A stretch of 64,000 bases of DNA, taken from NCBI RefSeq assembly GCF_030315685.1, contig NZ_JASXSI010000004.1:1-64000 (forward strand), given 5' to 3'. This DNA comes from Gordonia sp. ABSL11-1. Its GTDB lineage: Bacteria; Actinomycetota; Actinomycetes; Mycobacteriales; Mycobacteriaceae. How positions within the stretch are numbered: position 1 is the stretch's first letter; every line of letters begins with the position of its first letter. Positions 1,034-43,310 of this stretch are shown one piece after another. The notes under the pieces are model-generated. The model did not search any database, was not told where the DNA came from, and worked only from the letters and a program-made list of their open reading frames with translations. Both the position numbers and the translations under genes were made by a program.

Positions 1034-2259
1034 TCACCCCTCCGCGGTGACCGTCGACATCGGGATCAGCGCGACCGCCCCCACGAGCGCCACGGTGTCC
1101 CCGATCACCAGGAACCGCCAGTCTCCGAGCCACGCAGCGAACAGCGGCGCCCCGGCACGCGCGAGCGCCATCGGCACGGTGATCGCTGCCAAGACACTCG
1201 CGAAGTGCACGACGCCGAAGTGGTCGGCGACGATCGACGGCCGCGCGATCACCCCGACGCCCTGCCCGAAACCCACCGCCGCGACGCAGAGCAGGGTGAG
1301 CGGGATGGACAGTCCGACGGTGGGAAGCAGCAACAGCCCGATGCCCTGGACAGCAAACCGCGACAGCCGCGATCGGCGCCAGCCGAAACCGGCGGCCCAC
1401 CGTTGTCAGTGCGAGTCGTGTCAGGATCTGCAGCACTCCGACGGCAACCGGCATGGCGGTCGCCACCGCCATCGGATGCCCCACGTCCAGCAGATAGATC
1501 ACGATGAGAAGGAGAAACACCGAGACCGACGCGGCCTGCACGACGAACGCCACCAGCACCAACCAGAACCGACGCTGCCGAAGTGCGGCGCCGATCGGCA
1601 CGCCGACCCGCTGCTGCACTCTGCTGAGATGCACTCTGCTGAGATGCACTCGGCGCGAGGGTATGGCCAGCACGTGTCCGGGAACGGCGGTCACCGCGAA
1701 GACGGCGCCCTGGATCACCAGCGCTGTTGGCCAGCCGAATTCGGTGTTCAGTCACCCGAGAACCGGATACACCACATAGGTGCCGAGGCCGGCGATCATC
1801 GTGACCGTCAGAATGGTCCGATCACGATGTTCGGCCTCCGCGGCAACAACGATCACGGCGAACGCCGCCTCATAGGTGGACATCGCGATCGACAGTCCGA
1901 TCGCAGCGAAACAGATGTACAGCTGCGACACCGACGTGAGCAGCGAGCACAACAGCACGGCCGCGGCCCCGATGGCGGATCCCGACGCCATCACCGCGCG
2001 TCCACCATGCCGATCCAGCAGACGGCCGACCGGGAACGCTGCCAGCGCACCCATCAGGGTGGACACCGTCGACGCCGCGGTCACCGCGGTTCGGGTAACG
2101 CCCAGGTCGTCGGCGATGGGGTCAAGGATCACCGGCAGGATCTGGATCATCGCCACGTAGGCACTGGTGTTTGCTGATCGCGAATACGGCGACGAGCAGC
2201 CGTCGAATGACGTGGTGTGTGACTTCCGTTGTGGCGGTGCGACAGACCTCCGCCGTCAT
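1034..2259 (-). pseudogene. Broken MFS transporter (CynX/NimT-like)
   Basis: Conceptual translation from the ATG at 2259 gives a 12-helix major facilitator of about 408 aa, but in pieces. Residues MTAEVCRTATTEVTHHVIRR lead into the first helix. A one-base shift follows near 2172 (AGCAAACACC; removing one A restores NTSAYVAMIQ). The middle part ends in a TGA at 1752 where the context (PVLG-stop-LNTEFGW) suggests a former TGG tryptophan. Another shift near 1340 leads into the last helices, ending at 1034. The start overlaps the stop of the SsuD-like gene by ATGA, so it was the last gene of that operon, presumably a transporter for its substrate or product. It may be true decay or assembly error, but three lesions favour decay. 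Confidence 0.8.
1616..1645. repeat. 15-bp tandem duplication inside the broken MFS gene
   Basis: GCACTCTGCTGAGAT is repeated twice (1616-1630, 1631-1645), followed by a partial third copy GCACTC. It keeps frame and duplicates VHLSR in the predicted protein. It is the same length as the duplication at 245-274. Confidence 0.9.
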
Positions 2260-3341
2260 CCGCGCAACAGTGGCAGGAGCTGATCACCCTGTCGTTCGAT
2301 CTCCCGCAGGTACGGGGTGTCCGAGAGGACGAAATGGGTGATGCCGAGATCCTCGTACTTACGGAGCGATTTCGCCACGTCCTCGGCGGACCCGACGAGC
2401 CACGTGGTTCCCGCGCCGCCTCCGCCGTAGCGACCCGGGGTGGTGTAGAGGTTGTCGTCGAGCACCTCTCCTCTGGCGGCGAGATCGAGGAGGCGCTGCT
2501 GTCCGACGGCCGCCCGTCGATGCGGATTCTCCGGTACCGGACCATGCTCGCCGGCCACGGCCGACTGTTGAGCCGACATGTCGGCGACCTTGGCTTCTGC
2601 ATCGCGCCATGCCTCGTCGGTCGTGTCACGGACAAAGGTCGTGACCCGCAGCCCGAACTCGAGTGGGCGGTGCTGTCGATCGACGCTCTCGCTCAACGTC
2701 TTCAGTCGGTCGATCCGTTCAGCGACGCCGTCCAGAGGCTCTCCCCAGAACAGCTGCACATCCGCCTCGGCAGCCGCTACTCGTTCCGCGGCCGTGGATG
2801 CACCCCCGAAATACAGCGTCGGGTGCGTCCGTCCGTCATGGACATCGATGCGCGGCACCACCGTCGAGTTCTCCACGCGGAAATGCTCACCGTGGAAGGT
2901 GACGTTCTCCTCGGTCCACAGACGACGAACCAGCTGCAGGAACTCGCTGGTGCGGACGTACCGATCAGCCTGGTCACCGTCCGAGTCACCGTAGGCGGCC
3001 AGATCGTCCTTGCCCGAGACGATGTTGACGCGAACGCGGCCTCCGGTCAGATGATCCAGCGTCGCTGCCGCCGTGGCGAAGTTCGCGGGCCGCCAATAGC
3101 CCGGCCGGACCGCGATCAGCGGTTCGAACGTCGTCGTGCGCGCTGCCAGTGCCGAGGCGACGGTGAAGGTGTCCGGCCGGCCCCATCCCGTGCCGATCAG
3201 TGCCCCGGTCCATCCGCTGTCCTCCACAGCAACTGCCTGACGGGTCAGCGTGTCGAGGCTGTTGTGGTTCGCCACCGTGTCGTCGCCGCGATGTCCAGGG
3301 TTGATCTGATTCGGTATGTACCAGAGGAATTCGGAACTCAT
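2256..3341 (-). CDS. SsuD-like FMNH2-dependent alkanesulfonate monooxygenase family protein
   Basis: A 361-aa bacterial luciferase-like (LLM) protein with a TIM-barrel fold. It starts MSSEFLWYIPNQINPGH and contains RPGYWRPANFATAAATLDHL and GGRVRVNIVSGKD, the pattern of the SsuD/alkanesulfonate monooxygenase group. The C-terminal TTWLVGSAEDVAKSL and YLREIERQGDQLLPL are also as in SsuD. Such enzymes use reduced FMN from a separate reductase to cleave C-S bonds and release sulfite. It follows the DszC-like gene by 42 bases, and its stop overlaps the start of the broken MFS gene, so the three form one operon. The substrate cannot be assigned; a sulfonate or sulfone is the best guess. Confidence 0.82.
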   Translation of the reverse strand: MSSEFLWYIPNQINPGHRGDDTVANHNSLDTLTRQAVAVEDSGWTGALIGTGWGRPDTFTVASALAARTTTFEPLIAVRPGYWRPANFATAAATLDHLTGGRVRVNIVSGKDDLAAYGDSDGDQADRYVRTSEFLQLVRRLWTEENVTFHGEHFRVENSTVVPRIDVHDGRTHPTLYFGGASTAAERVAAAEADVQLFWGEPLDGVAERIDRLKTLSESVDRQHRPLEFGLRVTTFVRDTTDEAWRDAEAKVADMSAQQSAVAGEHGPVPENPHRRAAVGQQRLLDLAARGEVLDDNLYTTPGRYGGGGAGTTWLVGSAEDVAKSLRKYEDLGITHFVLSDTPYLREIERQGDQLLPLLRG

Positions 3342-3383
3342 GGGTCTTTCCGGGTCGAGGGTGGGTCAATGCCGTGCTCGCGG

Positions 3384-4496
3384 TCAGCGGGCGAGGGCGG
3401 CGAGTTGTGCGGACCGCACGCCGACGCTTTGTCCTTGCACGAGGACGAACAGCGCTGATCGTGCGTGCAGTTGAGCGGTGTCATCCGAACCGATGCCACG
3501 TCCGGACCGCGCGACGAGAAGAGCGCGCGTGATCGTCGTCAACGCCTCACCGGAGGCCACCTTGACGGCCAAGCGTTCGTCGAGGCGATGACGGCCGTCG
3601 CCTGCAGCTTTCGCCTCGTCGGCGAGTCCATAGGCCTCGGCACGGATCAACCCGATCCGCGGGCGCCACACTTCGGCGACCCGCCGCGCTCCGGGGTGGT
3701 CGGCCGCCTCCAGCTCCGCGAGCACGGTCTGCGCGAGGCCGAAATGTTGTGCGCGGGCATCACTCGCTGTGTCGAGATCTTCGATCCGCCACTCGGCCAA
3801 CGACTGGATCGTGAGCACCTCGTCCTCCGGGACGTACACGCGGTCAAGCGTCACTCGTTCGGTGCGGCTTCCGGCGACGGCAGAGAGATCCAGGTGCGTC
3901 GAGCGGGTCCAAGCGCCCACCGGCACGAGCGCGGTGATCACCCGCTCGGTCGACGACTCGACGGCGGACACCACGAGGGCCGAGTTCAATCCCCAACCGC
4001 TGACCCACGAGATGGTTCCTGCGAACTCCCACCCGCCCGAATGTCTTCTTGCTCTGATGAAGTGGTCGGGAAACCTGCGGACGTCACTGACCGCCGCGCC
4101 GACGAGCACTCGTCCGTGCACGACATCGTCACCGATTGACGACAGCACACGGCCTTTTCTCTGCTCTGCGAGCAATCGACCCACCATCGGGGCGTGCTGA
4201 GCCCACACCAACCAGGTGTTGAAGCATGCGCCCGAAATGATCTCGTGGATCCGGCGGTCTGGGTTGCGCCCGAGTGCAGCGCCTCCGTGATCCGCCGGAG
4301 CCTGGTGATTGAGAAGGCCGAGCACCGACAGCTCGTCGATTCGTTCCGGTGTGACGCCGTCGCTGTCGGTACGCAGCGCGGCCGGCCGCAGCACGGAGTC
4401 CGCATAATTCCGCACCCGAGCCACCACCGGATGGGCGTCGGCAGCGGTCACCTCATCGGCCGCGTGTGCCACGTCGACTGGGGAGTCAACGGTCAT
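3384..4496 (-). CDS. Acyl-CoA dehydrogenase-like flavin monooxygenase (DszC/SfnB type)
   Basis: A 370-aa protein of the acyl-CoA dehydrogenase fold. The N-terminal helical part (VRNYADSVLRPAALRTD) is followed by the middle beta domain with GWEFAGTISWVSGWG and RVTLDRVYVPEDEVL, then a C-terminal helical bundle. The DszC/SfnB branch uses this fold as an FMNH2-dependent oxygenase rather than on acyl-CoA. A location next to SsuD-like and NtaA-like genes supports that branch. The ATG at 4496 was chosen because AGAGAGG lies upstream; an in-frame ATG at 4538 is possible. It diverges from the NtaA-like gene at 4640 across a 143-base region holding an inverted repeat. Confidence 0.72.
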   Translation of the reverse strand: MTVDSPVDVAHAADEVTAADAHPVVARVRNYADSVLRPAALRTDSDGVTPERIDELSVLGLLNHQAPADHGGAALGRNPDRRIHEIISGACFNTWLVWAQHAPMVGRLLAEQRKGRVLSSIGDDVVHGRVLVGAAVSDVRRFPDHFIRARRHSGGWEFAGTISWVSGWGLNSALVVSAVESSTERVITALVPVGAWTRSTHLDLSAVAGSRTERVTLDRVYVPEDEVLTIQSLAEWRIEDLDTASDARAQHFGLAQTVLAELEAADHPGARRVAEVWRPRIGLIRAEAYGLADEAKAAGDGRHRLDERLAVKVASGEALTTITRALLVARSGRGIGSDDTAQLHARSALFVLVQGQSVGVRSAQLAALAR

Positions 4497-4518
4497 CGAG
4501 TCGGATGTCCTCTCTCTG

Positions 4519-4538
4519 ATGACGTCGTCAGGCGTCAT
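4519..4538. promoter_or_regulatory. Inverted repeat between divergent monooxygenase genes
   Basis: ATGACG and CGTCAT arms are separated by 8 bases, and the left arm also forms TGACG-T-CGTCA (4520-4530). The site lies in the only divergent control region of the first monooxygenase cluster and could be an operator. No regulator gene is adjacent; weak evidence. Confidence 0.3.
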
Positions 4539-4639
4539 GACCGGCGGTGGGAAGTCACGCAAGTGATCGGTACTGCCCCGGGTAAAGCTACTGAGCGACA
4601 GCGCCAATGGCCTTCTTGTGTTCACGGTGAACCGAAACG

Positions 4640-5938
4640 GTGACGCGCCGGACGCACCCTGCTTCACTGTGCCAAGTGTCCGCACCCAGGAACGGCGCCG
4701 AGCCGCCACAGCTCCACCTCAACGTCAACATCCTCAATGCCGGGGTCTTCGGTGGTTCATGGCGTCTGCCCGGCACCGATGGCCTGGCGAGCTACTCGGT
4801 CGACCACTACACGTCGATCGCGCAGAAGGCCGAGCAGGCATCGCTCGACGCCGTGTTCCTCGCGGACGGTCCGGTGCTGGACCCGAGCGTGCGCCATCGT
4901 CCCGGCAACAATCTCGAGCCGACGACGGTGCTCGCCCGCATTGCGGCGCAGACCGACCACATCGGACTGATCGGCACGCTGTCGTCGTCCTACAACGATC
5001 CCGACGAACTGGCCCGGCGTCTGGGCGATCTCGACCATGTGAGCGGCGGCCGATTCGGTTGGAATGTGGTCACCACGGCGGGCCCCGTGGCGGCACGCAA
5101 CTTCGGTCGGAACGGCGAGCCCGACCACGGACTTCGCTACCGTCGAGCGGCGGCAGTGGTCGAACGAGTCGTCGCGTCCTGGGATGAACGGACCCAAGCC
5201 GTGTCCCCGCAGGGCCGGCCGGTCGTGGTCCAGGCCGGCGGCTCGAGCGACGGGAAGAGGCTGGCCGCCCGTGTCGGCGAAGTCATCTTCTCCGCCGAGC
5301 AGGACATCGACAAGGCTCGATCCTTCCGCACCGAATTGAGAAGCGGTGCAGCATCATTTGGACGCGATCCCGATGAGATCGTGGTACTGCCCGGCCTGTC
5401 GACCGTACTGGGAAGCACCGAGGCCGAGGCACGTGCCCGTCGGGAGCTCCTCGACGAACTGTTGCCCGACGCCTACGCGCGCGGGCGATTGGCGGGACAG
5501 CTCGGATTTCCGCTCGACGATCTCGACGATGACGCGCCCATCCCGCCTGGTCTCCTCCGCGAGCCGGACGAGGCCGGCGGTTCCCAGACCTTCTACCGTG
5601 TCGTCCGCGACATCATCGCCCGCGAGAACCCCACCCTGCGTCAGCTTCTCAAGACACTGTCCGGCGGGGGTGGGCACCGGATCGTCGTGGGCACACCAGA
5701 GCAAGTCGCCGACGACATCGAACGATGGTTCACCCACGGCGCCGCCGACGGTTTCAACGTGATGCCCGACGTCCTCCCCTCCGGATTCGACGACTTCGCC
5801 GATCACCTCATCCCCGAACTGCAGCGACGCGGCCTGTTCCGCACCGAGTACAGCGGTTCGACGTTGCGACATCACCTCGGACTCGGTCTCCCGGCTGTTC
5901 GCGGCTCGGCCGATCAACCACTCGTGAGCGCACGGTAA
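4640..5938 (+). CDS. NtaA/SnaA/DszA-family FMNH2-dependent monooxygenase
   Basis: A 432-aa LLM protein of the long NtaA/SnaA/SoxA(DszA) class. Visible features are LHLNVNILNAGVFGGSWR at the N-terminus, the DHVSGGRFGWNVVTTAGP segment lining the flavin site, GRPVVVQAGGSSDGKRLAA (phosphate-binding loop) and a late GHRIVVGTPEQVADDIERWF. Relatives cleave nitrilotriacetate, dibenzothiophene sulfone or similar compounds with reduced FMN. It heads a plus-strand run and is followed after 9 bases by the short LLM paralogue. The GTG at 4640 has no clear ribosome binding site, and GTG at 4676 is an alternative start. Confidence 0.82.
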   Translation: MTRRTHPASLCQVSAPRNGAEPPQLHLNVNILNAGVFGGSWRLPGTDGLASYSVDHYTSIAQKAEQASLDAVFLADGPVLDPSVRHRPGNNLEPTTVLARIAAQTDHIGLIGTLSSSYNDPDELARRLGDLDHVSGGRFGWNVVTTAGPVAARNFGRNGEPDHGLRYRRAAAVVERVVASWDERTQAVSPQGRPVVVQAGGSSDGKRLAARVGEVIFSAEQDIDKARSFRTELRSGAASFGRDPDEIVVLPGLSTVLGSTEAEARARRELLDELLPDAYARGRLAGQLGFPLDDLDDDAPIPPGLLREPDEAGGSQTFYRVVRDIIARENPTLRQLLKTLSGGGGHRIVVGTPEQVADDIERWFTHGAADGFNVMPDVLPSGFDDFADHLIPELQRRGLFRTEYSGSTLRHHLGLGLPAVRGSADQPLVSAR

Positions 5939-5947
5939 GAGGATGAG

Positions 5948-6862
5948 ATGAGTGTGTTCATCGAGATCGCCGTCGGCGAGTTGCCGGGTCAGGTGTCACT
6001 GGACGCGGCCGCCGCGATCGCGCGCGCCGCGGAGGACGCCGGCGCAGCCGGATTGGTGATCCGGGACTCGGTCGACGGCGTACGCGGCACCGACCCGTCT
6101 GTCGTGGGTTCCTACCTCGCCGGACGTCATGCCGCCCTGGCGTTCGTCGTCGAGGCGCCGACGACTCACAACGCGCCGTACAACCTGGCGCGGCGTGTGC
6201 TCTCGTTCGACCGCGCGACCGGCGGGCGGGTGGGCGTCCTTCTCCGGCCCGGGGACGGCGACGAGGTCACCGATGTGGCCAATGCTCCCCCGCACGAATC
6301 GCTGGCGGAATCGGATCGTTGGGTCGAGTACGTCCGCATTCTGAACGGTCTGTGGGAATCGTTCCCGGCAAGCGCATTACGCGGAGACCAGGGAAACGCG
6401 GTCGTTGCCGACGACACGCACATCCGCCCGATCGACCACGACGGCGACTTCTACCGGGTGGCCGGCCCACTCGACGGTCCGTCGTCCCCGCAGGGCAGAC
6501 CGGCGGTACTCGCCAACGATCCATCGGCGCTCGGCTGGGACCGGGTTGCCCGGTATGCCGACGCAGTGATCGTGGACGAGGAACAGGTCTCGACCGCCGA
6601 TCTGGAGTTGGCCGCTGCCGCCGAGCGAGCAGACCGCCGACGTGACGACATCGCCTTGCTGGCGCGAACGTCGTCGCCTGCGTCGACCCGCGATTCCGCA
6701 CCCGTTCATGCCACCGATGGAGTGACACTGCTCGTTACCGAATTCGACGACACGACAGCCGACCTCATTCGAGCAGCCACCGACCGCTACCCGCACACCC
6801 CGGACAGCGTGACGTTACGAGCCCTTCTCGGACTGCGCGAGATCGCGGGAGCGACGCGATGA
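5948..6862 (+). CDS. Short luciferase-like protein, possible partner subunit
   Basis: A 304-aa protein that aligns by eye with the long NtaA-type neighbours but is about 130 residues shorter. NAPYNLARRVLSFDRATGGR matches the SPYNLARRFQALDHVTKGR region of the gene at 11381. FYRVAGPLDGPSSPQGRPAVL matches FFRVAGPLPVPAGPQGRPVLV. The NIVTT segment and the QAGGS phosphate loop of the long enzymes are replaced by GVLLRPGDGD and ANDPS, and the C-terminal third is reduced. The gene sits between the long enzyme and the DszC-like gene (ATGA overlap with the latter). A similar short gene has the same neighbours at 34327-35241. It could be a non-catalytic subunit or a diverged enzyme. Confidence 0.7.
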   Translation: MSVFIEIAVGELPGQVSLDAAAAIARAAEDAGAAGLVIRDSVDGVRGTDPSVVGSYLAGRHAALAFVVEAPTTHNAPYNLARRVLSFDRATGGRVGVLLRPGDGDEVTDVANAPPHESLAESDRWVEYVRILNGLWESFPASALRGDQGNAVVADDTHIRPIDHDGDFYRVAGPLDGPSSPQGRPAVLANDPSALGWDRVARYADAVIVDEEQVSTADLELAAAAERADRRRDDIALLARTSSPASTRDSAPVHATDGVTLLVTEFDDTTADLIRAATDRYPHTPDSVTLRALLGLREIAGATR

Positions 6863-8097
6863 CGACCACCGACATCGGCGACACGGCGCAAGATCTCAAT
6901 CATGTGGGCGTGAGGGGTCCCGCTCTCACCGTCGACGGTATCCGCGCGGAGATCGCACCGGTACTGTCGCGGATCGGTGCGAGCGCCCGCGACCGCGAGC
7001 ACAGCCGCGACTACGCTTTCGGCGACGTCCGTGCACTGGCCGATGCCGGGATCGCACTCACCGGCATCGCTCTACGCGAGGGCGGTGCGGGAGGCACCGT
7101 CCGTGACGTCACCGACGTGATCATCGAGGTTGCCCGCGCGGACTCGAATGTGGCGCAGGCACTCCGCGGTACCTTCTTGTTGGCCAACCAGATCGCGGGA
7201 CGCGAGGACATCCCGCTGCGGTCGATCAACCTCGCCCGATTGCGCGCACGGGCGCTGTTCGCCGGAACCGGCAACGAACGCAACGGCGGAGCCGGCGGCA
7301 GCGTGACCACCACGGCCCGTCGCGTCGACGGCGGCTACCTGATCGCCGGCCGCAAGTACTATTCCACCGGCGGCCTGTACGCGTCCTACTTCTCCGGTTC
7401 TGCCGTGACCGAGGACGGCACCAACATCGGCTTCACCGTGCCCACCGACCGCGCCGGGGTCACCCGGCTCGATGACTTCGATGCCGTCGGGCAGCGTCTG
7501 ACGCAGAGTGGCTCCACCGTGCTCGACTCCGTCCGTGTCACCGACGACGAAGTCGTGGTCGTCGATGAATCGACACCTGACAATCCCTGGCTCGGTTCAT
7601 TCGCGCAGCTGTATCTTGCGGCAGTGCAAGCGGGAATCGCCGCCCGCGCCCTCGACGACGCCATCTGGTTCGTGCGCGAACATGCCCGCCCGATCAAGCA
7701 CAGCACCGCCACCACCAGCGCCGACGACCCATATGTGCGTCACACAGTCGGTGAGATCGCCGCCCGCGCACAGGCTGCACGAGCAGTCGTCCTCATCGGT
7801 GCCGAATCGCTGCAATCGGTGCGCGGGCTCACCGGCGACGCCGCCAGGGCTGCGGGCGCGGAATCCGCTGTGACCGTCGCACAGGCCGGCGTCGTCGCAA
7901 TCGAATCGGCGCTGCAGGCCACTCAACTCGTCTTCGACGTGGGAGGTGGATCGATCACCAACCGGGAGTACGGGTTCGATCGTCACTGGCGCAACTCGCG
8001 GACCGCAGCAAATCACAATCCGCGGCAATGGAAGGCGGCCGTCGCGGGCGCCTATCACCTGACCGGCGAGGAGCCTCCCACCACCGGCCTGTTCTGA
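6859..8097 (+). CDS. DszC-like acyl-CoA dehydrogenase-fold monooxygenase
   Basis: A 412-aa protein with the DszC/SfnB pattern. The N-terminal helical domain contains EHSRDYAFGDVRALADAGI and ALREGGAGGTVRDVTDVIIE. The beta domain carries GRKYYSTGGLYASYFSG and GQRLTQSGSTVLDSVRV. The C-terminal bundle ends in DRHWRNSRTAANHNPRQWK, a signature of this group that is also present in the protein at 35244. DszC uses FMNH2 and O2 to oxidise sulfur; the substrate here is unknown. The start overlaps the stop of the short LLM gene by ATGA. The normal length suggests an intact enzyme. Confidence 0.85.
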   Translation: MTTTDIGDTAQDLNHVGVRGPALTVDGIRAEIAPVLSRIGASARDREHSRDYAFGDVRALADAGIALTGIALREGGAGGTVRDVTDVIIEVARADSNVAQALRGTFLLANQIAGREDIPLRSINLARLRARALFAGTGNERNGGAGGSVTTTARRVDGGYLIAGRKYYSTGGLYASYFSGSAVTEDGTNIGFTVPTDRAGVTRLDDFDAVGQRLTQSGSTVLDSVRVTDDEVVVVDESTPDNPWLGSFAQLYLAAVQAGIAARALDDAIWFVREHARPIKHSTATTSADDPYVRHTVGEIAARAQAARAVVLIGAESLQSVRGLTGDAARAAGAESAVTVAQAGVVAIESALQATQLVFDVGGGSITNREYGFDRHWRNSRTAANHNPRQWKAAVAGAYHLTGEEPPTTGLF

Positions 8098-8158
8098 TCT
8101 CACCTCTCCCGAAACATCGTCGACCGACAACCACCACAGCACAATCGAAAGGACATCG

Positions 8159-9187: not shown

Positions 9188-9226
9188 GTCCATCTGAACC
9201 CTGACCCGCCCCGAGAGGACACCACG

Positions 9227-10258: not shown

Positions 10259-10259
10259 C

Positions 10260-11348: not shown

Positions 11349-11380
11349 CCCCTGCTGCTCTCACCCTCCCGGAGACGACG

Positions 11381-12763: not shown

Positions 12764-12795
12764 GTGTCTGACGACCGCTCGCCGCCGGGTCGCCG

Positions 12796-15395: not shown

Positions 15396-15399
15396 CGGA

Positions 15400-16353: not shown

Positions 16354-16355
16354 GG

Positions 16356-20187: not shown

Positions 20188-20197
20188 GGAGATCGTC

Positions 20198-22425: not shown

Positions 22426-22428
22426 GCT

Positions 22429-28297: not shown

Positions 28298-28339
28298 CGG
28301 ATTCCGGGCCGTCGAACATTCTTCGGGGTTCTCTGCCGC

Positions 28340-29452: not shown

Positions 29453-29645
29453 CGCCACACCCGACTTCCTCAACCACCTCATGGTTCTGCTACCGAATCT
29501 TACGGCGGGGGCGTGGACGGCCGCGTCGAGCGATCGACGGACCACGGGAGACGCCATCACCACGCTGAGCGCCACCGGTGTGTGGCGTAACGTCTCGGGT
29601 GGTCGAGACGACGAGCACGATAGAGGTCACCAAACAGGGGTCGTT

Positions 29646-32803: not shown

Positions 32804-32972
32804 GACTCCCTGCTTTCTCCGGGAACCATCGATGCCCGGACACGTTGATGTGCAACGCTTCCGACGCATGGATCGTGTTCGAATGGTGTGGAATCCCGAG
32901 TATGGCCGGACCCGGCTGCCGACGAACGCGTTGCGCGCGGGAAGGTTCTATCTGTCCGAATTCCGACGACGC

Positions 32973-34268: not shown

Positions 34269-34326
34269 GGGTACTCCTGAAAGGCGTGTCGTGGTGCCGG
34301 CCGTTGACCTGGCACGAGGGGATGTG

Positions 34327-35241: not shown

Positions 35242-35243
35242 GG

Positions 35244-36494
35244 TCAATTGCCCTGACCACCGCGGCCTGCCGCGAAGAGATTCGGGACAGGGTCGGTGCC
35301 GTTCACAAACCAGTCGCCCAGGATGCGGGCTTTGTAGACGCGCGGGTTGTGTGATGCCAGCGTCCGAGCGTTACGCCAGTGGCGGTCGAGGAGTTTCGTT
35401 GTCGACACCCCGGAAGCGCCGAGAGCGTCGAACACGGTGGTCGTCGCGGCGAGGGCGGCGTCGATGATGACGAGCTGCGCCTGATCGGTGGCCACCTGCG
35501 AGCTGCGGACACGGAACGACCGTTCGTCATCGTCGCCGGCGGCATGTGCTGTGGCCAGCCGATCGAGCTCGCGTGACGTCTGACGCAACGCGGCCTCCGC
35601 CGCGAACGCGTGCGCCGAGACACTTCCGATGACCTGCAGCAGTTGTGGATCCGACGCCGGCACGGGATCGAGACCCTGCGGGTAGTTCCGTCCGCGGGCC
35701 TTCAGCGCCGCGATCCCGTCCCGCAGCGTGGCACGGATGATCCCCGTCAGGACGGCGAGGATCGCCACTTGATAGAAGTGGCCCTGGTAGACGAACCGCT
35801 CGCTGACGGGAAAGACGTCGCCCTCCTCGGCGGGCACGTCGACGTAATTGGCGCTGCCACTGGCCGTCGTCTGTTGGCCGAAGCCGGTCCAGTCGTCGAT
35901 CAGATCGACACCCGGATCGTCGCGGCGGACGAGAGCCGTCAGCAGTCCGCCGTCGTCGGTGCGACCGATGACATCGAGCCAGTCGGCGAAGAGACTACCG
36001 GTGGCATAGAACTTCGCGCCGGTGACACGGTAGTCGTCGCCGTCTGGCCGGATGGTCGTCGCCATCGCCGCCAAAGTGCCGTTGTTGGCCTCGGTCCATC
36101 CTCCGCCGACGAACTCCCCCGCGAGGAATCGCTCGATCCACCGGTCGTTGGCCGCCGACTGCGGTGCGTTGAGACGGTCTTCCACGAATGCCAAATGGTT
36201 GCGCCAGACATGTGCGACGTTGGCGTCTGCCTCGGCCAACGCTGCCAGCACCGCGAAGGTCTGTTCCAGCGACGCCCCGAGTCCGCCACGCGCAATCGGT
36301 ATCCGGATGTGCCCCAACCCGGCATCCTTCAGCCATTGCACCTGCTCGTGCGCGAACTCTCGATTGCGTTCACGTTCGGTGTTGCCCTCCGCGATCCGGG
36401 CGAAGATCGGTGCGAACCGCTCGTCGAGCTCGTCGTCGGTGGCTGTCGCGGGCCGCAGGTAGACCGGCGCGATCGGCGCGTCGATGTCGCTCAT
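35244..36494 (-). CDS. DszC-like acyl-CoA dehydrogenase-fold monooxygenase
   Basis: A 416-aa protein of the DszC/SfnB class. The N-terminal domain has EGNTERERNREFAHEQVQWL and HIRIPIARGGLGASLEQTFA. The beta domain has GGGWTEANNGTLAAMATTIR, GAKFYATGSLFADWLDVIGR and GFGQQTTASGSANYVDVPAE. The C-terminus has LLDRHWRNARTLASHNPRVY, matching the same signature in the protein at 6859. Such enzymes use FMNH2 and O2. It is the first gene of the second monooxygenase operon, 69 bases downstream of the Eis-like gene. Substrate unknown; sulfur or a related heteroatom is inferred from the family. Confidence 0.85.
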   Translation of the reverse strand: MSDIDAPIAPVYLRPATATDDELDERFAPIFARIAEGNTERERNREFAHEQVQWLKDAGLGHIRIPIARGGLGASLEQTFAVLAALAEADANVAHVWRNHLAFVEDRLNAPQSAANDRWIERFLAGEFVGGGWTEANNGTLAAMATTIRPDGDDYRVTGAKFYATGSLFADWLDVIGRTDDGGLLTALVRRDDPGVDLIDDWTGFGQQTTASGSANYVDVPAEEGDVFPVSERFVYQGHFYQVAILAVLTGIIRATLRDGIAALKARGRNYPQGLDPVPASDPQLLQVIGSVSAHAFAAEAALRQTSRELDRLATAHAAGDDDERSFRVRSSQVATDQAQLVIIDAALAATTTVFDALGASGVSTTKLLDRHWRNARTLASHNPRVYKARILGDWFVNGTDPVPNLFAAGRGGQGN

Positions 36495-36563
36495 GGTCGT
36501 CACTTCCTGTCGAGAGTTGTTGTGGTGCAGCGCCACATACCGCAGCGTCTGGACGGGGGCGTG

Positions 36564-37763
36564 TCAGAACACGATCCCGGAGAACGGGAGTCGGTGCGCG
36601 CCGAACAGCACGTCGAGTCGTCGGACAGCGTCGACACGGTGCTCGACGACCTGCCCGACCGCGGCCAGGTTCCGCCAGCGGGTGCCGCCCAGATAAGTGG
36701 CGCCGAGTGCCGCGACACCGACGGTCACGTCGGGGTTGGCGCTCACGCGGCGCACCGACTTCGGGCCGATCTCGTAGACACCGGAGTTGGTGGGCAGCTG
36801 CGGATCGTCGACGGCGACGACGACGGGGTCCTCTTCGGCGTAGGTGCGCGCGGCGAGCGCCGCCTCCACGTCGACGAGTCGCAGCCAGGTCTCGTCGTGC
36901 TCAGGGCCCAGGTCGACGGCGCGGCGGTCGCCGACAGCGAGGGCGATCGGATCGTCGAGCGCCACGGCATCGACGGCGACCACATCCACCAGATCGAGGG
37001 AGAGCAGGTGGCGCCACAGTCCGGCACGGGCGTCGTCGTCGACCGCGACGAAGTCCGACACGGTTACCGTCCGTGACCTGCTGCCGAACCAGTGCTCCGG
37101 GTCCTCCGGCCGATACACCACGTACCCGTCGTCGACGCCGTTCGCACTGTGCACCGCGACATACACACTGGCGGAGTCACTCGCTCGCCGGATGCGTTGC
37201 AACTCCCACCACCCGTCCGGGCGGATGATGGTGCCGGTCGAGTCGACCCGGTCGGCGATCTCGGAGAGGAGATCCGTGGTCACCGCACCGTCCACCAGAC
37301 GGACCTGCCCGCGGTCAGGCAGCGTGGGTCGCAACCGGGCGCGTCGGAGATCCACGCGGACCGACCGCGCCGACGACGCGACGCCGTAACCGAACTGCTC
37401 GTAGATGACCGCCTCCGAGGCGCGGAGGGTCGCGACAATCTCCCCGCGACGGGCGAAGTCGTCGAACTGGGCGGCGATCAGCCGACGCAGAACCCCCTGA
37501 CGGCGGTGGGTCGGCAGCACGCCGATGTGGGTGACCGCGGCGTGTGGCACGTGCGCACCGCCAGGGACCACGAGCCGACTGGTGTACGCGTCGGCCCCGC
37601 CGACGACCACGCCGTCGTCGACGGCCCCGATGAAGCGGCCGGGTTCGGTGATGGCGGTGGCGTCGACGTCCCAGGCGGGGAGTCCGACCATCGAACGGAA
37701 GAAGGCGCTCAGCGCCGACCTCACCTCATCCGGCGTCGACAGCGTGCGGATCTCAACGCTCAT
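36564..37763 (-). CDS. eis: Eis-like GNAT N-acetyltransferase
   Basis: A 399-aa protein with the Eis architecture: N-terminal GNAT domain, second GNAT-like domain and a C-terminal SCP2-like domain. The acetyl-CoA loop is VTHIGVLPTHRRQGVLRRLI (about residues 78-96). YEQFGYG places Tyr126 where Eis has its catalytic acid, and the protein ends in SGIVF with a C-terminal Phe, whose carboxylate is the general base in Eis. The length matches Eis (about 400). Eis acetylates aminoglycosides and protein lysines at several positions. The symbol is by family only; the natural substrate is unknown. It is probably transcribed upstream of the second monooxygenase trio. Confidence 0.85.
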   Translation of the reverse strand: MSVEIRTLSTPDEVRSALSAFFRSMVGLPAWDVDATAITEPGRFIGAVDDGVVVGGADAYTSRLVVPGGAHVPHAAVTHIGVLPTHRRQGVLRRLIAAQFDDFARRGEIVATLRASEAVIYEQFGYGVASSARSVRVDLRRARLRPTLPDRGQVRLVDGAVTTDLLSEIADRVDSTGTIIRPDGWWELQRIRRASDSASVYVAVHSANGVDDGYVVYRPEDPEHWFGSRSRTVTVSDFVAVDDDARAGLWRHLLSLDLVDVVAVDAVALDDPIALAVGDRRAVDLGPEHDETWLRLVDVEAALAARTYAEEDPVVVAVDDPQLPTNSGVYEIGPKSVRRVSANPDVTVGVAALGATYLGGTRWRNLAAVGQVVEHRVDAVRRLDVLFGAHRLPFSGIVF

Positions 37764-38046
37764 TCCGACGAGTATCGGCGCGAGCGTAGGCGAGATCGAG
37801 CGTTTCACCCGCGGCGATTTCATCGGAAGAATCGGGAATCGACAACTGCCGGACCCCATGGGGAAAGGACCTGTGTGACAACCGAACATCACCATCGAGA
37901 TCAGATCCGCTATTCCGGCGACTCGGACATCCGATCACGCTGAACCGAAGAGGTGCCGATATGCACACGCCCACCGTAGGGTCGGCCACCGACGTGCGCC
38001 GTCGACAATCGCCGGCGCCAATCACGAGGGAACGGCCCCACACATC

Positions 38047-39639
38047 ATGCGAATCGAACGTATCCGTCGGCGCGGCTTCGTCGTCGCCGTACTCGCTCTG
38101 ACGGTCGCCGTCGTCGCGACCGCCTGTGGCGGCGGAGGCGGCTCGGTGACATCGAAGAACCCTGCCGACACCCTGGTCGTCGGCCTGTACACCGAACCGA
38201 CGGCGATCGATCCACAGCGCGAGTACTTCTGGGAGACCTTCCGAGCGTCACGGAATGTCTACGAGCCGCTCGTGCAGGAGGTGCTGTCGACCGATCAGGG
38301 CGTGACGAAACTGGCGCCCGGTCTCGCGACGGCGTGGCGGTCCAACCCCGATGCCACCACATGGACGTTCGACCTGCGGCGCGGGGTGAAGTTCCACGAC
38401 GGCACCGACTTCGACGCGGCCGCACTGGACTTCAACGTCAAGCGCTTCAGCGATCCGTCGTTCGAGTTCTACGACGAGAAGAGTGTGGCGATGCTGAAAG
38501 CACGGTTCAGCGACCTCAAGAGCACCCGCATCGTTGATGACCACACCTACGAGTTCACCTTCAATCGGCCCTACCTGGGATTCCCGCGTCTGCTCGCCCA
38601 GTCCATCGGCTCGCCGCTCGTATTCAGCCCGGCCGCACTGCGGCAGTACGGCAACGACGGGTTGTCGGAGCATCCGACGGGTACCGGCCCCTACCGGTTC
38701 GTCGAGCGAAAGATCAACGACCACATCACGCTCGACCGCAATGACGCCTACTGGGGTGAGACACCGCAGCTGAAACGCCTGGTGTTCCGGACGATCCCGA
38801 ACAACCAGAGTCGGCTGGCCGCCTTTCAGAGTGGCGAGATCGACATCCTGACGCGCGTGCAACCCACCGACGTAGAACTGCTCGAGCGTCAGGGTGCGTC
38901 GGTGCCGAAGGGCACCGCGGCGCAACTCGACTACGTTTCCTTCCTGTTCGGCAACCGTTGGGCGCAGAACCCGCAAGTGCGCGAGGCCGTATCGCTCGCC
39001 ATCGACCGACAGGGTCTGGCCGACAACATCTACTCCGGCCACGCACAACCACTCTGGTCGTTTCTGAATCCCGGCAACGAGGCCTACGACCCGAATCTGC
39101 GTAACTACTCCTACGATCCGGACCGCGCACGGCAGGTGTTGTCCGGAGCCGGGCTCGGCAATGGTCAGGTGTCGTTCAACATCATCGCCGACCTCGCCGG
39201 CCAGCCCGAGGCGGAGGCCATCTCCGCGAACCTGAAGGCCGTCGGGATCAACGCGCCCGTCGTTGCCCTCGAGCGGGGCAACTACTCGTCGCGCATCTCC
39301 AATCCGCAATCCGACGACGGCTTCCACCTCGGCGAATACGGCGGAACGTACCCCGAGTGGGCACTGGAGGGATTCAACTCGACGGTCCTGGCCAACGGAG
39401 GTGAACGCTACGTCGATTACCCGGCGATCACCCGTGCACTCGACACCGCGCGCTACACCAGCGACCCGAACACGCGAATCGTCGACTGGCAGAACGCCGA
39501 CAAGGTGATCGCCGCGGACCACGCGGTCATCCCGACGGTGAACTTCACCCGCTACTACGCGATCTCACCCCAGGTTCGCGGCTTCGTCTGGCCCAACACG
39601 AACTGGTACGACCTCGGACCGGTGTCGAAGGAGAGCTGA
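38047..39639 (+). CDS. ABC importer substrate-binding lipoprotein (SBP_bac_5)
   Basis: A 530-aa family-5 binding protein. The signal peptide FVVAVLALTVAVVATAC ends in a lipobox, with the lipidated Cys at about residue 27, followed by GGGGGS. Landmarks are DTLVVGLYTEPTAIDPQREY, LAPGLATAWRSNPDATTWTF, DLRRGVKFHDGTDFDAAALD, HPTGTGPYRFVERKINDHIT and QNPQVREAVSLAIDRQGLAD. It captures a small solute for the permeases that follow (TGATG overlap with the first). This importer lies beside the second monooxygenase trio as the 16356 importer lies beside the first. It is only distantly similar to that protein, suggesting a different ligand. Confidence 0.92.
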   Translation: MRIERIRRRGFVVAVLALTVAVVATACGGGGGSVTSKNPADTLVVGLYTEPTAIDPQREYFWETFRASRNVYEPLVQEVLSTDQGVTKLAPGLATAWRSNPDATTWTFDLRRGVKFHDGTDFDAAALDFNVKRFSDPSFEFYDEKSVAMLKARFSDLKSTRIVDDHTYEFTFNRPYLGFPRLLAQSIGSPLVFSPAALRQYGNDGLSEHPTGTGPYRFVERKINDHITLDRNDAYWGETPQLKRLVFRTIPNNQSRLAAFQSGEIDILTRVQPTDVELLERQGASVPKGTAAQLDYVSFLFGNRWAQNPQVREAVSLAIDRQGLADNIYSGHAQPLWSFLNPGNEAYDPNLRNYSYDPDRARQVLSGAGLGNGQVSFNIIADLAGQPEAEAISANLKAVGINAPVVALERGNYSSRISNPQSDDGFHLGEYGGTYPEWALEGFNSTVLANGGERYVDYPAITRALDTARYTSDPNTRIVDWQNADKVIAADHAVIPTVNFTRYYAISPQVRGFVWPNTNWYDLGPVSKES

Positions 39640-40712
39640 TGTCGACCACCCTGATCGAGACGGACGCCGACGTCGGCGCCGACGAGCCCGATGCACCCAA
39701 ATCGCGCGCCGTCGAACCGACCGGTCGCTGGGATACGGTGCGTGCCGCGGCCCGTCGGCACCGCCTGGCACTACGGATTCTCGGTCGGGTGCTCCTTCTG
39801 GTCCCAGTGCTGTTCGTCATCTCGATCCTGGTGTTCTTGCTCGGCAAGGCGAGTCCCGGAGACCCAATCAAGGCCAGCCTGCACGGCGTGCTGTCGTCGG
39901 ATGCAGTTGCCGACCTCCAACAGGCGTACGGGCTGAACGACGGACTGGTCGCCCAGTACCTCGACTGGGTGTCGAGTCTGTTCACCGCAGGCGGCGGCCG
40001 GTCGATCATCAACGGCTCCAACGTGTTCGACACACTGGGAACGGCGTTCGTGAACACGTTGATCCTCACCGCCGCCGCGGTGTTCGTATCCGTGGTGTTC
40101 GGGGTGCTGATCGGAACCGTTGCGGCGCTCAATCACAACCGCTTCGTCGACCGCGCCATCATGCTGCTGGTGCAGATCGGTTCGAACCTGTCGGTCTACT
40201 GGTTCGGTCTGATCCTCATCTGGCTGTTCGCGCTGCAGTGGAAGGTGCTGCCTGCCACCGGTATGCGCGACCTCACCGGCAACGGCGGTGCCGCCGACCT
40301 CCTGCATCACCTGATCCTGCCCGCGTTCTCCGCAGCTCTCATCTCGATGCTCATCCTCGCGCGGTTCGCACGGGCCGGCGTGATCGAGAGCCTGGAATCG
40401 GACTACATCCGGACCGCGCGCAGCCAAGGGCTCCCCCAGTGGCGAATCCTGACGAAGCACGTCGGCCGCAACGTCGCACCGATCATCGTCACGACCACGG
40501 GTCTGGAGATCGGCACACTTCTCAGCGGCGCGGTGTTCGTCGAGTTCGTGTTCAGCTGGCCCGGTGTGGGTACCGACCTGATGAACGCCATCAGCGCCCA
40601 CGACTACCCAGTCATCCAGGGCGGCGTCATGTTGGTGACGGTGGTGTTCGTGCTCGTCAACCTGGTCACCGACGTCATCGCCGATCTGCTCGACCCCAGA
40701 CTCAGGAGCTGA
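39639..40712 (+). CDS. ABC importer permease, DppB-like
   Basis: A 357-aa membrane protein with an extended cytosolic N-terminus of about 45 residues before the first helix (VLLLVPVLFVISILVFLLGK). The DppB pattern continues with GKASPGDPIKASLHG, QQAYGLNDGLVAQYLDWVSS, the EAA loop RTARSQGLPQWRILTKHVGR and EIGTLLSGAVFVEFVFSWPG near the end. It forms the membrane channel with the next gene. It shares one base with the binding-protein stop, so translation is coupled. Confidence 0.92.
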   Translation: MSTTLIETDADVGADEPDAPKSRAVEPTGRWDTVRAAARRHRLALRILGRVLLLVPVLFVISILVFLLGKASPGDPIKASLHGVLSSDAVADLQQAYGLNDGLVAQYLDWVSSLFTAGGGRSIINGSNVFDTLGTAFVNTLILTAAAVFVSVVFGVLIGTVAALNHNRFVDRAIMLLVQIGSNLSVYWFGLILIWLFALQWKVLPATGMRDLTGNGGAADLLHHLILPAFSAALISMLILARFARAGVIESLESDYIRTARSQGLPQWRILTKHVGRNVAPIIVTTTGLEIGTLLSGAVFVEFVFSWPGVGTDLMNAISAHDYPVIQGGVMLVTVVFVLVNLVTDVIADLLDPRLRS

Positions 40713-40713
40713 T

Positions 40714-41622
40714 GTGACGATCTCGGACGATCAGGAGACGACGGCCGACGTCGAAGCGGGCGTGTCGTCGTCGGCCACTCGCCGATGGAATCGCCCTGCA
40801 TGGACCTACCACCGACAGTTGGTTCTCGCGGTCACCGTGCTGACGCTGGTGATAGTGGTGTCTGCTCTGGCGCCGTGGCTCGCTCCCTACGATCCAACGA
40901 TCGGGGACCCGGCGTCGCGATATCTGCAACCCGGTTCGGATGGACACCTGCTCGGAACGGACGAGCAGGGTCGCGACGTCCTGAGTCGCCTCATCTGGGG
41001 TGGTCGCGCCACGATCGTCCCGACCGCGATCGCGACCTCGGTCGCCGTGCTGATCGGCTCCGTCATCGGACTCCTGGCCGGTTGGTCGCGGTCGTGGGTG
41101 TCGTCCGCGGTCATGCGGATCATCGACATCCTGTTCGCGTTTCCCGTCGTCATCGTCGCCTTCGCGCTGGCCGAGGTAATCGGGATGGGCGTCTGGGTGG
41201 TGGCCTCTGCAGTGGTGTTCGCCGCAGTCCCCTACGTGACGCGGATCGTCTACGCCGAGACGCGACGCCAGCGCGAGCTGGAGTATGTCGAGGCATCCAT
41301 CGGGCTGGGCGCATCGTCGTGGACGATCCTGCGTTCGGAGATCTTGCCAAACGTGGGTGCGACCATCATCGTGTATTGGACCAGTCTCATCGGCATACTG
41401 ATCGTGTTGGCGTCGAGCCTCAGTGCACTGGGCATCGGCGTGCAGCCACCCACGCCCGATTGGGGGCGGATGGTCGCCGAAGGTGCAAAGGTCCTGATCT
41501 CGGGCAGCCCGTTCGTCGCGATCGTCCCGGGCGTCGCGATACTCATCGTGGGCCTCGCCTTCAACTGGCTCGGCGACGGCCTCCGTGACGTGCTCGACCC
41601 CCGCTGGAGCGCACACCGATGA
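40714..41622 (+). CDS. ABC importer permease, DppC-like
   Basis: A 302-aa membrane protein that begins at GTG 40714, one base after the previous stop. It has the DppC landmarks: first helix QLVLAVTVLTLVIVVSALAP, the motif LGTDEQGRDVLSRLIWGGRA, the EAA loop EASIGLGASSWTILRSEILP and SLSALGIGVQPPTPDWGRMV followed by the final helix FVAIVPGVAILIVGLAFNWL. It works with the DppB-like partner. Its end overlaps the ATPase start by ATGA. Confidence 0.92.
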   Translation: MTISDDQETTADVEAGVSSSATRRWNRPAWTYHRQLVLAVTVLTLVIVVSALAPWLAPYDPTIGDPASRYLQPGSDGHLLGTDEQGRDVLSRLIWGGRATIVPTAIATSVAVLIGSVIGLLAGWSRSWVSSAVMRIIDILFAFPVVIVAFALAEVIGMGVWVVASAVVFAAVPYVTRIVYAETRRQRELEYVEASIGLGASSWTILRSEILPNVGATIIVYWTSLIGILIVLASSLSALGIGVQPPTPDWGRMVAEGAKVLISGSPFVAIVPGVAILIVGLAFNWLGDGLRDVLDPRWSAHR

Positions 41623-43310
41623 CGACCACACATGAATCACGTTCATCCGCCGAGACTTCCGACGCGCGCCCACTGCTGCGTGTCGACGGCTTGTCGGTCC
41701 GCTTCCCGAATCGGGCCGGGGGCGTCGACGCGGTGTCGGACCTCTCCCTCGACCTGCCGACCGATCGCGTGCTCGCCCTGGTCGGCGAATCGGGATCGGG
41801 CAAGAGCGTCACCGCGTCCGCGATCGCGGGCCTGCTCCCCGCCAGTGCTCGGCCCGAGGTGACCGGGTCGATAGAGCTCGGTGGCCACCAGATCATCGGC
41901 GCCGCCGAACGTGATCTGAACAGGCTGCGAGGCAAACGGATCGGCACGATCTTCCAGAACCCGGCTACGTCGTTCGACCCGTCGTTCACCATCGGCAACC
42001 AGCTCGTCGAGCTGATCCGACTCCACCGACCGGTGGCTCGGCGCCACGCTCTGACGCTGGCAGCTGAGTGGCTGGAGCGGGTGGGCATCCACGATCCGCA
42101 CCGCGTGCTCGACAGTTATCCGCATCAGTTGAGTGGCGGTATGCGACAGCGGGTGATGATCGCGGTCGCATGCCTACCCGAGCCCGATCTGCTGATCGCC
42201 GACGAACCCACGACCGCACTGGATCCGACGCTCTCCACTCAGATCCTGGATCTGATCGACGGTCTGCGGCGCGACCTCGGCATGGCCGTGCTGTTGGTGA
42301 CGCACGACTTCGGCGTGGTGGCACGGCTCAGCGACACCGTCGCGGTCCTCCGCCATGGGCGTCTCGTCGAGCACGGCGCCACCGCCGCGCTGCTCGCGGA
42401 TCCGCAGCACGAGTACACGCAGCGTCTCATCGCCGCGGTGCCCGAACTGTCGGCCGATTCTCATCTGGTGGCGCGGGATCATTCGTCGGCCGATCCGGCG
42501 CCGGCGGCGGTGATCGACGGGGTGTCGAAGGTGTTCCACGGCAACGGGAGTCGGACGAGCGACTTCGCCGCGCTGCAGGAGGTGTCCATCCGCGTCGACC
42601 GGGGTCGAGCTCTCGGGTTGATCGGCGAATCAGGCTCCGGGAAGTCGACATTGGCCCGCATCCTGGCCGGCATCGAACCCGCATCGAGCGGCAAGGTCAC
42701 CGTGCACCGGGACGAACGTCAGATCGAGATCTCGCAGCTGGGTCGCGCGGACCGTGCGCGTCATGTCCAGCTCGTATTCCAGGATCACGGCAGCGCACTC
42801 AACCCACGCATCCGGGTCGGCGAGCAGATCGCCCGACCCATCCGTCGTCTCGGTGTCGCCGCCACCTCGTCGGCCGCCAGACGCCGCACCGACGAACTCC
42901 TCGACCTCGTCGGGCTCGAACCCGCCGTGCTCCGGGATCGCTACCCACATCAGCTCTCCGGGGGTCAGCGGCAACGCGTCGGCGTCGCCCGCGCGCTCGG
43001 CGTCGAGCCGGCTTTGGTGATCCTGGATGAACCGACGTCGGCGCTGGACGTCACCACGCAGGACGAGATCCTGCACCTGCTCGCCGACCTGCGCAAAGCG
43101 ACGTCGGTCACCTACCTGCTCATCGCGCACGACCTGGCCGTCGTCCAGGCCTTCGCGGACGACGTGGTGGTCCTGGATCGGGGACAGGTCGTCGACCGGT
43201 TCGACGCCCGTGACTTCCGCGCACCCGACCGCGATCCCGTCACCCAGCGTCTCGTAGAGGCCGTGCTGCCGCCGCGGCCCACGCGGATCAGCCGGGAGCC
43301 TTCCGGCTGA
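41619..43310 (+). CDS. ABC importer ATPase, two fused nucleotide-binding domains
   Basis: A 563-aa double ATPase. Domain 1 has Walker A GESGSGKSV, signature LSGGMRQRVMIA and Walker B LLIADEPTTALD. Domain 2 has GESGSGKST, LSGGQRQRVGVA and LVILDEPTSALD. Both halves look catalytically complete, unlike the first importer, whose second Walker B reads DEAVSALD. It energises the two permeases just upstream (ATGA overlap). The 3' end overlaps by about 23 bases the end of a decayed SDR gene on the opposite strand. Confidence 0.93.
   Translation: MTTTHESRSSAETSDARPLLRVDGLSVRFPNRAGGVDAVSDLSLDLPTDRVLALVGESGSGKSVTASAIAGLLPASARPEVTGSIELGGHQIIGAAERDLNRLRGKRIGTIFQNPATSFDPSFTIGNQLVELIRLHRPVARRHALTLAAEWLERVGIHDPHRVLDSYPHQLSGGMRQRVMIAVACLPEPDLLIADEPTTALDPTLSTQILDLIDGLRRDLGMAVLLVTHDFGVVARLSDTVAVLRHGRLVEHGATAALLADPQHEYTQRLIAAVPELSADSHLVARDHSSADPAPAAVIDGVSKVFHGNGSRTSDFAALQEVSIRVDRGRALGLIGESGSGKSTLARILAGIEPASSGKVTVHRDERQIEISQLGRADRARHVQLVFQDHGSALNPRIRVGEQIARPIRRLGVAATSSAARRRTDELLDLVGLEPAVLRDRYPHQLSGGQRQRVGVARALGVEPALVILDEPTSALDVTTQDEILHLLADLRKATSVTYLLIAHDLAVVQAFADDVVVLDRGQVVDRFDARDFRAPDRDPVTQRLVEAVLPPRPTRISREPSG

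Follow-up and report, generated by a model that had tools for sequence, protein, structure and literature searches.

Two diverged gene modules for a predicted two-subunit flavin monooxygenase, each beside its own importer, in Gordonia sp. ABSL11-1

The analysed window, the first 64,000 nucleotides of contig NZ_JASXSI010000004.1 of Gordonia sp. ABSL11-1 (genome 5.7 Mb, with 61 Bac_luciferase matches), encompasses two sets of three genes of flavin-monooxygenase families, here termed L, S and D, which lie about 28 kb apart and both stand beside a peptide-type importer. Module 1, on the forward strand, includes L1 (4640..5938, 432 aa), a long NtaA/DmoA-type flavin mononucleotide (FMN) monooxygenase predicted to be the catalytic subunit; S1 (5948..6862, 304 aa), a short luciferase-like monooxygenase (LLM) predicted to be its partner subunit; and D1 (6859..8097), a DszC/SfnB-like flavin monooxygenase of the acyl-CoA dehydrogenase superfamily. 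Module 2, on the reverse strand, contains D2 (35244..36536), likewise DszC/SfnB-like; S2 (34327..35247, 306 aa), whose start is likely the ATG at 35241 (304 aa) used by its relatives; and L2 (32973..34268, 431 aa), with the same predicted roles for S2 and L2. L1-S1-D1 (4640-8097, +) and D2-S2-L2 (36536-32973, -) were confirmed by profile models and alignments to be the same three families, as the first-pass annotation had proposed. Module 1 is transcribed as L-S-D and module 2 as D-S-L; the S and D genes abut or overlap, through ATGA in module 1 and through TGACCATG, or a TTG overlapping the stop, in module 2.

Each importer exhibits five domains: one from a family-5 binding protein, one from each of two permeases, and two ABC domains from a single ATPase gene. 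Importer 1 lies on the reverse strand after the forward-strand genes of module 1 and consists of the binding protein SBP1 (16356..18095), of the TIGR04028 (KPN_01854) kind at 333.2 bits, below the cut-off of 468.5; permease B (15400..16353, PF00528); permease C (14517..15395, PF00528); and the fused double ATPase (12796..14655, two PF00005 stretches). Importer 2 lies on the forward strand, divergent from module 2, and consists of the binding lipoprotein SBP2 (38047..39639, PF00496, 254 bits); permease B (39639..40712, PF00528, 153 bits); permease C (40714..41622, PF00528, 88 bits); and the fused double ATPase (41619..43310, two PF00005 stretches). The separate importers and the different anchoring of their binding proteins were both noted in the first-pass annotation and were found again here: SBP2 carries a lipobox-like VVATAC, and the N-terminal hydrophobic stretch of SBP1 has no such cysteine, as read off the sequence by eye.

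The short protein S proved the most informative member of the set. S2 had no Pfam match at E 0.001, and its nearest relative, in Gordonia sp. CPCC 206044, is 92% identical. Among solved structures, the family profiles of both S proteins matched 7e36_A (NtfO1) best, at 148 bits over 10-302 of 306 for S1 and at 85 bits over 44-293 of 302 for S2, and the same chain was the top PDB fold match of their AlphaFold models (mean pLDDT 87.5 for S1 and 88.7 for S2; TM-score by query length 0.80 and 0.70). An alignment was compiled from the loci of other genomes described below and from the window, comprising 77 S rows, 75 partner L rows (74 distinct proteins, the L of locus L052 being entered twice, once with each of two S genes) and 36 further proteins of NtaA type, in which eight FMN-site residues taken from NtfO2 were scored (F56, A58, T101, T133, H151, Y155, Q203 and F222) and the side loop was defined as the residues between a conserved W and QG, the limits of loop and lid being sequence-based. 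At most one of the eight residues is kept in any of the 77 S rows, the S alignment near H151 and Y155 being uncertain; F56 is kept in none, Q203 in two and T101 in 11, and N130, added as a conserved neighbour of T133, occurs in 0/77 S rows vs 73/75 L rows. The lid, about 95 residues when full, is 0–7 residues long in 77/77 S rows, and the side loop measures 44–45 residues in 73 of them (exceptions 37, 41, 43 and 60). A pseudogene fragment was rejected as an account of S, as the window copies have no internal stop, the family alignments are conserved along their length and the models are confident.

The long protein L displays the opposite pattern. L1 and L2 score 390.7 and 391.0 bits against the NtaA/DmoA model TIGR03860, above its cut-off of 279.7, and the best PDB match of both is 7e36_B (NtfO2), followed by CmoJ/YtnJ and then by NtaA and DszA. 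The side loop has 9 residues in L1 and 28 in L2; across the partner rows it has 28–30 residues in 66/75 and 9 in 5/75, so that it is short in 71/75, with a loss of 17 or 36 residues. The four other rows comprise two cut loci (L026 and L045), a broken copy in Mycobacterium lepraemurium (L061) and L059, where L is probably not a real S partner. Complete L rows have a lid of 97–105 residues. Among the other NtaA-type rows the side loop has 43–46 residues in 32/36; of the exceptions, L017 (9-residue loop) is really an S1 partner whose S lies just beyond the locus edge, L037 is cut, and the short loops in L034 (24) and L026 (38) have no explanation. Most stand-alone NtaA-type enzymes have both side loop and lid, as does L3 (11381..12763, +; TIGR03860 445.1 bits), the second NtaA/DmoA-type enzyme near module 1, with a side loop of 45 and a lid of 98 residues. 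The FMN site is largely retained, with F56 in 73, A58 in 72, T101 in 72, T133 in 72, Y155 in 72, Q203 in 73 and F222 in 71 of the 75 L rows, 2–3 gaps occurring at each position; L1 carries 8/8 of the scored residues and L2 7/8, with R at H151.

By sequence, the losses of S (lid and FMN site) and of L (side loop) are complementary in both modules, and they are as evident from it as the gene content, the linkage and the old divergence of the modules. The pattern has a precedent in NtfO1-NtfO2, described in the available text of PMC8027225 as a heterodimer in which NtfO2 has the lid and lacks the side loop tail and NtfO1 is the reverse; there the FMN site of NtfO2 was placed by docking, four FMN-site mutants were almost completely inactive, and stmO1 or stmO2 alone gave no new product in vivo. 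By analogy, L and S would form a heterodimer in which S supplies the side-loop contacts that L has lost, and S is probably a non-catalytic partner subunit of L, not a third enzyme.

Differential divergence was observed for the three families between the modules, with identities of 42% for L1 and L2, 35% over only 147 aa for S1 and S2, and 31% for D1 and D2, values which rule out a recent duplication, in line with the first-pass annotation. A plain inversion of module 1 into module 2 was likewise ruled out, by the differing transcription order. L1 is also 40% identical to the stand-alone L3, almost the level of L1 and L2, which tells against the reading of a repeated module so far as L goes; because of this closeness, L likeness alone would not prove repetition, and it is the S gene and the linkage that do. 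When the own genome was queried with S1 and S2, 18 and 15 matches were obtained (self included), of which the short ones were S1 and S2 only and all remaining frames were at least 369 aa long. At another place in the same genome (L103, 5630-16251), an SBP1-like importer is accompanied by a D1-like gene and by NtaA-type enzymes of the stand-alone kind, with no S; therefore the importer-L-D theme occurs without S too.

When named genomes were scanned with the S2 profile, 72 loci were returned, 67 of them with an S gene, while L064, L067, L068, L070 and L072 contain only full-length relatives and no S; the loci were split into S2-type and a third group by an ad hoc profile score of 250 bits, and some run to contig ends. 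The S2 clade is represented by 33 loci in Gordonia, Williamsia, Amycolatopsis, Dactylosporangium, Nocardioides, Actinomadura, Microbispora, Herbiconiux, Rhizobium, Shinella, Mesorhizobium, Variovorax and others. L lies no more than 300 bases from S in 33/33 of these loci and D no more than 1.6 kb from S in 33/33 (a more distant D relative, at 115–144 bits, in L024, L026 and L027), and a binding protein, permease and ATPase occur within 9.5 kb in 27/33. The first-pass annotation had made its shared-pathway idea depend on the short LLM occurring with these partners elsewhere, and it does. The third group (37 S genes in 33 loci) is looser, with L within 3 kb of S in 35/37 (no more than 300 bases away in 26), D at up to 6.5 kb in 26/37 and an importer in 27/37. 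Gene order varies among the loci (D-S-L, D-L-S, S-D-L, divergent), so the linkage does not represent conservation of one fixed operon. Relatives of the set are met again in soil actinobacteria and in rhizobia, some carrying no annotation beyond hypothetical protein.

The set was also found on plasmids: pAtK84c of Rhizobium rhizogenes carries S, L and D, each annotated 'conserved hypothetical protein'; a plasmid of Sinorhizobium sp. RAC02 carries the set; and the linear Rhodococcus rhodochrous plasmid pGD02.2.1 (L148, 4785-13612) carries importer, S, D and L, the S annotated 'hypothetical protein', with a GNAT gene upstream and IS21 and IS3 genes downstream of the module. A plasmid search with S1 gave 0/941 records at 80% coverage and partial matches only. 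Variant arrangements were also seen. In Mycobacterium lepraemurium (L061, 3734-13150) broken remnants of S, L, D, an SsuD-like gene and the importer are present, in line with genome decay; in four Rhodococcus loci (L049, L052, L053 and L071) a single D is surrounded by two unlike S genes, which suggests that the cluster contains two S-L pairs; and a third-type S gene of Gordonia soli (L143, 9594-10583) was matched with one in-frame TGA (G038:C50).

High-scoring S1 was found in 4/59 and S2 in 8/59 Gordonia genomes, and both only in the source genome; the block L1-S1-D1-two reductases-LLM-L3 recurs in the 3 other Gordonia genomes with S1. In the family sample, S1 occurred in 2/101 genomes, the source genome and Williamsia sterculiae, the latter with S2 and S1 modules and both importers about 11 kb apart, S to S; at most 39 (genus) and 22 (family) candidates were scored per genome in these searches. 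A phylum-wide search gave S1 in 1/396 genomes, a value not used as a frequency because only 5 candidates per genome were scored. Where S1 accompanies any other S module, the two lie 8.6–28 kb apart in 5/7 genomes (the source genome, Williamsia, Nocardia cerradoensis, N. aobensis and Frankia tisae; not G018 or N. miyunensis), in a sample biased in that Frankia and Nocardia came via S2-profile loci and the two co-located Nocardia are one genus. In G. soli, S2 and a third-type S are on separate contigs.

The L tree placed the partners of S2 and of the third group in one clade (100/100) and the partners of S1 in another (100/100), and a quick L tree gave a similar picture. The 20 sampled S proteins fell on one side of a branch (99/98), the branches being long. 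Pairwise distances of the three proteins were correlated at r 0.91 for S-L, 0.76 for S-D and 0.64 for L-D in 31 S2-clade loci, and at 0.96, 0.88 and 0.94, respectively, in 22 third-group loci, rows with cut or doubtful partners or without D having been dropped; none of 2000 permutations was as high in any pair, and the correlations, which speak for the L-S pairing, are confounded by the shared ancestry of the hosts. One ancient origin, or two parallel losses, are possible. The latter, that the modules converged on the same gene set through separate deletions of 17 and 36 residues in the L loop instead of descending from one ancestral heterodimer, is given somewhat over one chance in three: the deletion lengths differ, the S1-partner L clade groups with full-loop Nocardia enzymes (98/95), and BLAST places S1 nearer to L3 than to S2. 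This account must face the common side taken by all sampled S rows, and an approximately unbiased (AU) test that did not reject all sampled L partners as one clade (p 0.108).

The neighbouring genes differ between the modules. Module 1 is flanked by an SsuD-like FMNH2-dependent monooxygenase (2256..3341, -; TIGR03565, 231 bits, below the cut-off of 518) and by a weak acyl-CoA-dehydrogenase-like protein (3384..4709, -; PF02771, 26.3 bits; TIGR04022, 27.8 bits), whose real start is probably at a lower coordinate, since its open reading frame overlaps L1. Downstream of D1 lie two aldo/keto reductases (8159..9187, +, PF00248, 239.9 bits; 9227..10258, +, PF00248, 235.9 bits), which within the window occur in module 1 only, as first noted; an LLM of the TIGR04027 (KPN_01858) kind (10260..11348, +; 239.5 bits, below the cut-off of 412.9); and L3. 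Module 2 has an APC-type amino-acid permease adjoining L2 (31235..32869, -; PF00324, 91 bits) and a GNAT acetyltransferase that is Eis-like by its domains (36564..37895, -; PF13527, PF17668 and PF13530), which within the window is restricted to module 2 and has a putative salvage role. Several of these partners recur with the modules elsewhere; in module 2 they are the GNAT and the amino-acid permease, and in module 1 the genes of the SsuD-like, the TIGR04027-like and the second NtaA-type enzyme. The GNAT lies upstream of D2 and the permease beside the module in 8/8 Gordonia S2 modules, window included, and an SsuD-like gene adjoins the S1 modules of Williamsia, Frankia and Nocardia. No Rfam RNA element was matched in 1-44000, and a promoter scan of 4400-18500 found none, which says little for a high-GC actinobacterium. 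Immediately upstream of importer 1 a DUF222 protein (18435-20033) is encoded divergently to the binding protein, and between the modules (28340-29575) lies a gene for a protein with a strong catalytic domain of the type VI secretion system Tle1-like phospholipase kind (PF09994, 290 bits), in an actinobacterium.

Taken together, a two-subunit L-S monooxygenase working with a DszC-like D and an importer, for uptake, S-oxidation and C-S cleavage of organosulfur compounds, is the reading we favour, with somewhat better than even confidence. The linked importer would bring in the compound, D would oxidise its sulfur and L-S would cut the C-S bond, as in DszC/DszA or CmoO/CmoJ, with FMNH2 coming from an assumed flavin reductase. 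In module 1 the aldo/keto reductases would reduce aldehyde by-products and the SsuD-like enzyme would handle the remaining sulfonate; in module 2 the GNAT and the permease would handle an amine-bearing, cysteine-like substrate, acetylated before oxidation, and these neighbours, with the logic of CmoO/CmoJ, suggest an amino-acid-like organosulfur compound as its substrate. On the best reading, the modules represent a single kind of system serving two substrate ranges. The first-pass annotation had seen two related pathways for imported heteroatom compounds; the two old related modules stand, and the short LLM is better read as a non-catalytic subunit than as a third enzyme.

The narrowing to organosulfur is tentative and draws only on the relatives of D and on the TauD-type, MetQ and SsuD-like genes that adjoin the modules at some loci. 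D1 scores 116.7 bits against PDB DszC, and D2 scores 111 bits against PDB DszC (5xb8) and 95 bits against methanesulfinate monooxygenase. A neighbour-family search, from which antisense-shadow-like clusters of open reading frames were left out, found TauD-type dioxygenase genes in 20/33 third-group loci (one member typed) and, in 6 loci including two of the S2 type, a family typed as MetQ/NlpA lipoprotein. In published omics work, G. alkanivorans 135 responds to dibenzothiophene vs sulfate with a DszC-like gene (393-fold by qRT-PCR) and with the NtaA/DmoA gene numbered next to it, and in Gordonia NB4-1Y organosulfur sources elicit a response of the NtaA-type RS14730 and the LLM RS14725. These published sulfur-responsive genes, QGP87979/QGP87980 and RS14725/RS14730, may or may not correspond to L, S and D.

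A number of observations weigh against the favoured reading. D1 and D2 score 239.9 and 249.6 bits, below the cut-off of 430.9, on the SfnB model TIGR04022, and 135.1 and 111.2 bits on the DszC equivalog NF043015, whose cut-off is 850. TauD was found in 0/33 S2-type loci and, with the query used, nowhere in the window, the two TauD genes of the genome being on another contig; the SsuD-like gene is present in 0/3 other Gordonia S1 regions, and a GNAT occurs anywhere in the locus in 12/33 S2-type loci only. H151, published as essential, is H in only 5/75 L rows and mostly R otherwise, and among the S2-clade L partners Arg occupies the position of this NtfO2 His in 33/34 rows, the other being a gap. 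Nickel chelates, opines and peptides are also among the cargoes of peptide-type importers. The grouping of the S1-partner L clade with full-loop Nocardia enzymes is a further point on this side, although a single L clade was not rejected. NtfO1-NtfO2 performs biosynthetic carbon hydroxylation, so the chemistry of L-S need not be C-S cleavage.

One rival is a real L-S heterodimer acting in another pathway, C-N cleavage or hydroxylation of an imported aminopolycarboxylate, opine or peptide-like metabolite, for which L belongs to the NtaA/EmoA family, the importers are of the peptide/nickel/opine class and the solved S-L relative hydroxylates carbon; the likeness of D to S-oxidising DszC and methanesulfinate monooxygenase, and the TauD, MetQ and SsuD-like genes found nearby at some of the loci, speak against it, and we consider it unlikely, at about one chance in four. 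Least probable, at less than half that weight, is that S is an independent enzyme or a regulator instead of a subunit of L, since its proteins, though conserved (mean identity 52% in the S2 clade) and encoded by their own genes, have lost the lid and all but at most one FMN-site residue in every row, L shows the complementary loss, and NtfO1 provides a precedent.

The feature itself is real, recurrent and under-annotated. If the two-subunit organosulfur reading is true, a conserved two-subunit monooxygenase acting on organosulfur compounds in the environment has escaped notice, since databases list its second subunit either as hypothetical or as an LLM enzyme in its own right; work with L by itself would then give no activity or misleading results, a point of concern for desulfurisation and for studies of sulfonates or PFAS precursors in Gordonia and Rhodococcus; and the complementary loop and lid losses would represent a clean natural case of duplicate enzymes growing mutually dependent. 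More tentatively, at roughly one chance in three, the modules may belong to a hitherto unrecognised, partly plasmid-borne system of organosulfur scavenging that relies on obligate pseudo-enzyme heterodimers in several old lineages. In it, a catalytic LLM without a side loop would borrow that of a dead LLM, and modules from different lineages would be kept near each other (8.6–28 kb apart in Gordonia, Williamsia, Nocardia and Frankia) because the parts of one sulfur source on which they act follow one another or overlap.

Among known systems, NtfO1-NtfO2 / StmO1-StmO2 (PDB 7E36, 7C2R; PMC8027225) is alike in its pair of a short and a long NtaA-type protein, the long one without side loop and with lid and FMN site, the short one with loop and without lid, a pattern the modules share; it differs in that the available text of that report mentions neither an importer nor a DszC-like partner, both of which the modules have, and in that L2 has R where NtfO2 has H151. 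CmoO/CmoJ of Bacillus, whose salvage route is given in the available text of PMC10863075 as acetylation, S-oxidation and then cleavage, is alike in S-oxidation followed by flavin-dependent C-S cleavage, the GNAT of module 2 could mirror the acetylation, and CmoJ is the nearest relative of L after NtfO2; however, CmoJ/YtnJ has a full-length side loop, whereas the modules have a shortened L loop, a DszC-like oxidase and a peptide-type importer. The SfnB/SfnG and MsuC/MsuD sulfone and sulfonate pathways are alike in a DszC-like D and an SsuD-like neighbour, and SfnB/SfnG differs in that D is below the SfnB cut-off and L is not SfnG (TIGR04021 far below cut-off). The Dsz 4S pathway, whose gene order we take to be DszA-DszB-DszC, is alike in a DszA-family L and a DszC-like D in one operon around a middle gene, but the middle genes of the modules are short LLMs and not a DszB sulfinase, an importer is present, and D is far below the DszC cut-off. 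The NCBIfam pair TIGR04027/TIGR04028 (KPN_01858/KPN_01854), an LLM and a binding protein, has relatives of both in module 1, both below cut-off, and neither KPN name occurred in the papers that an open-access search listed. Pristinamycin IIA synthase SnaA/SnaB and bacterial luciferase LuxAB are LLM enzymes with two unlike subunits and are set beside the modules by description only. The two subunits of pristinamycin IIA synthase are recorded in the available text of PMC3775442. No description of an S-L-D-importer module was found in the open-access literature, most subscription papers falling outside that search; an LLM heterodimer of the NtaA type is known from one solved case, and its import-linked, probably sulfur-scavenging use in the present modules is probably new.

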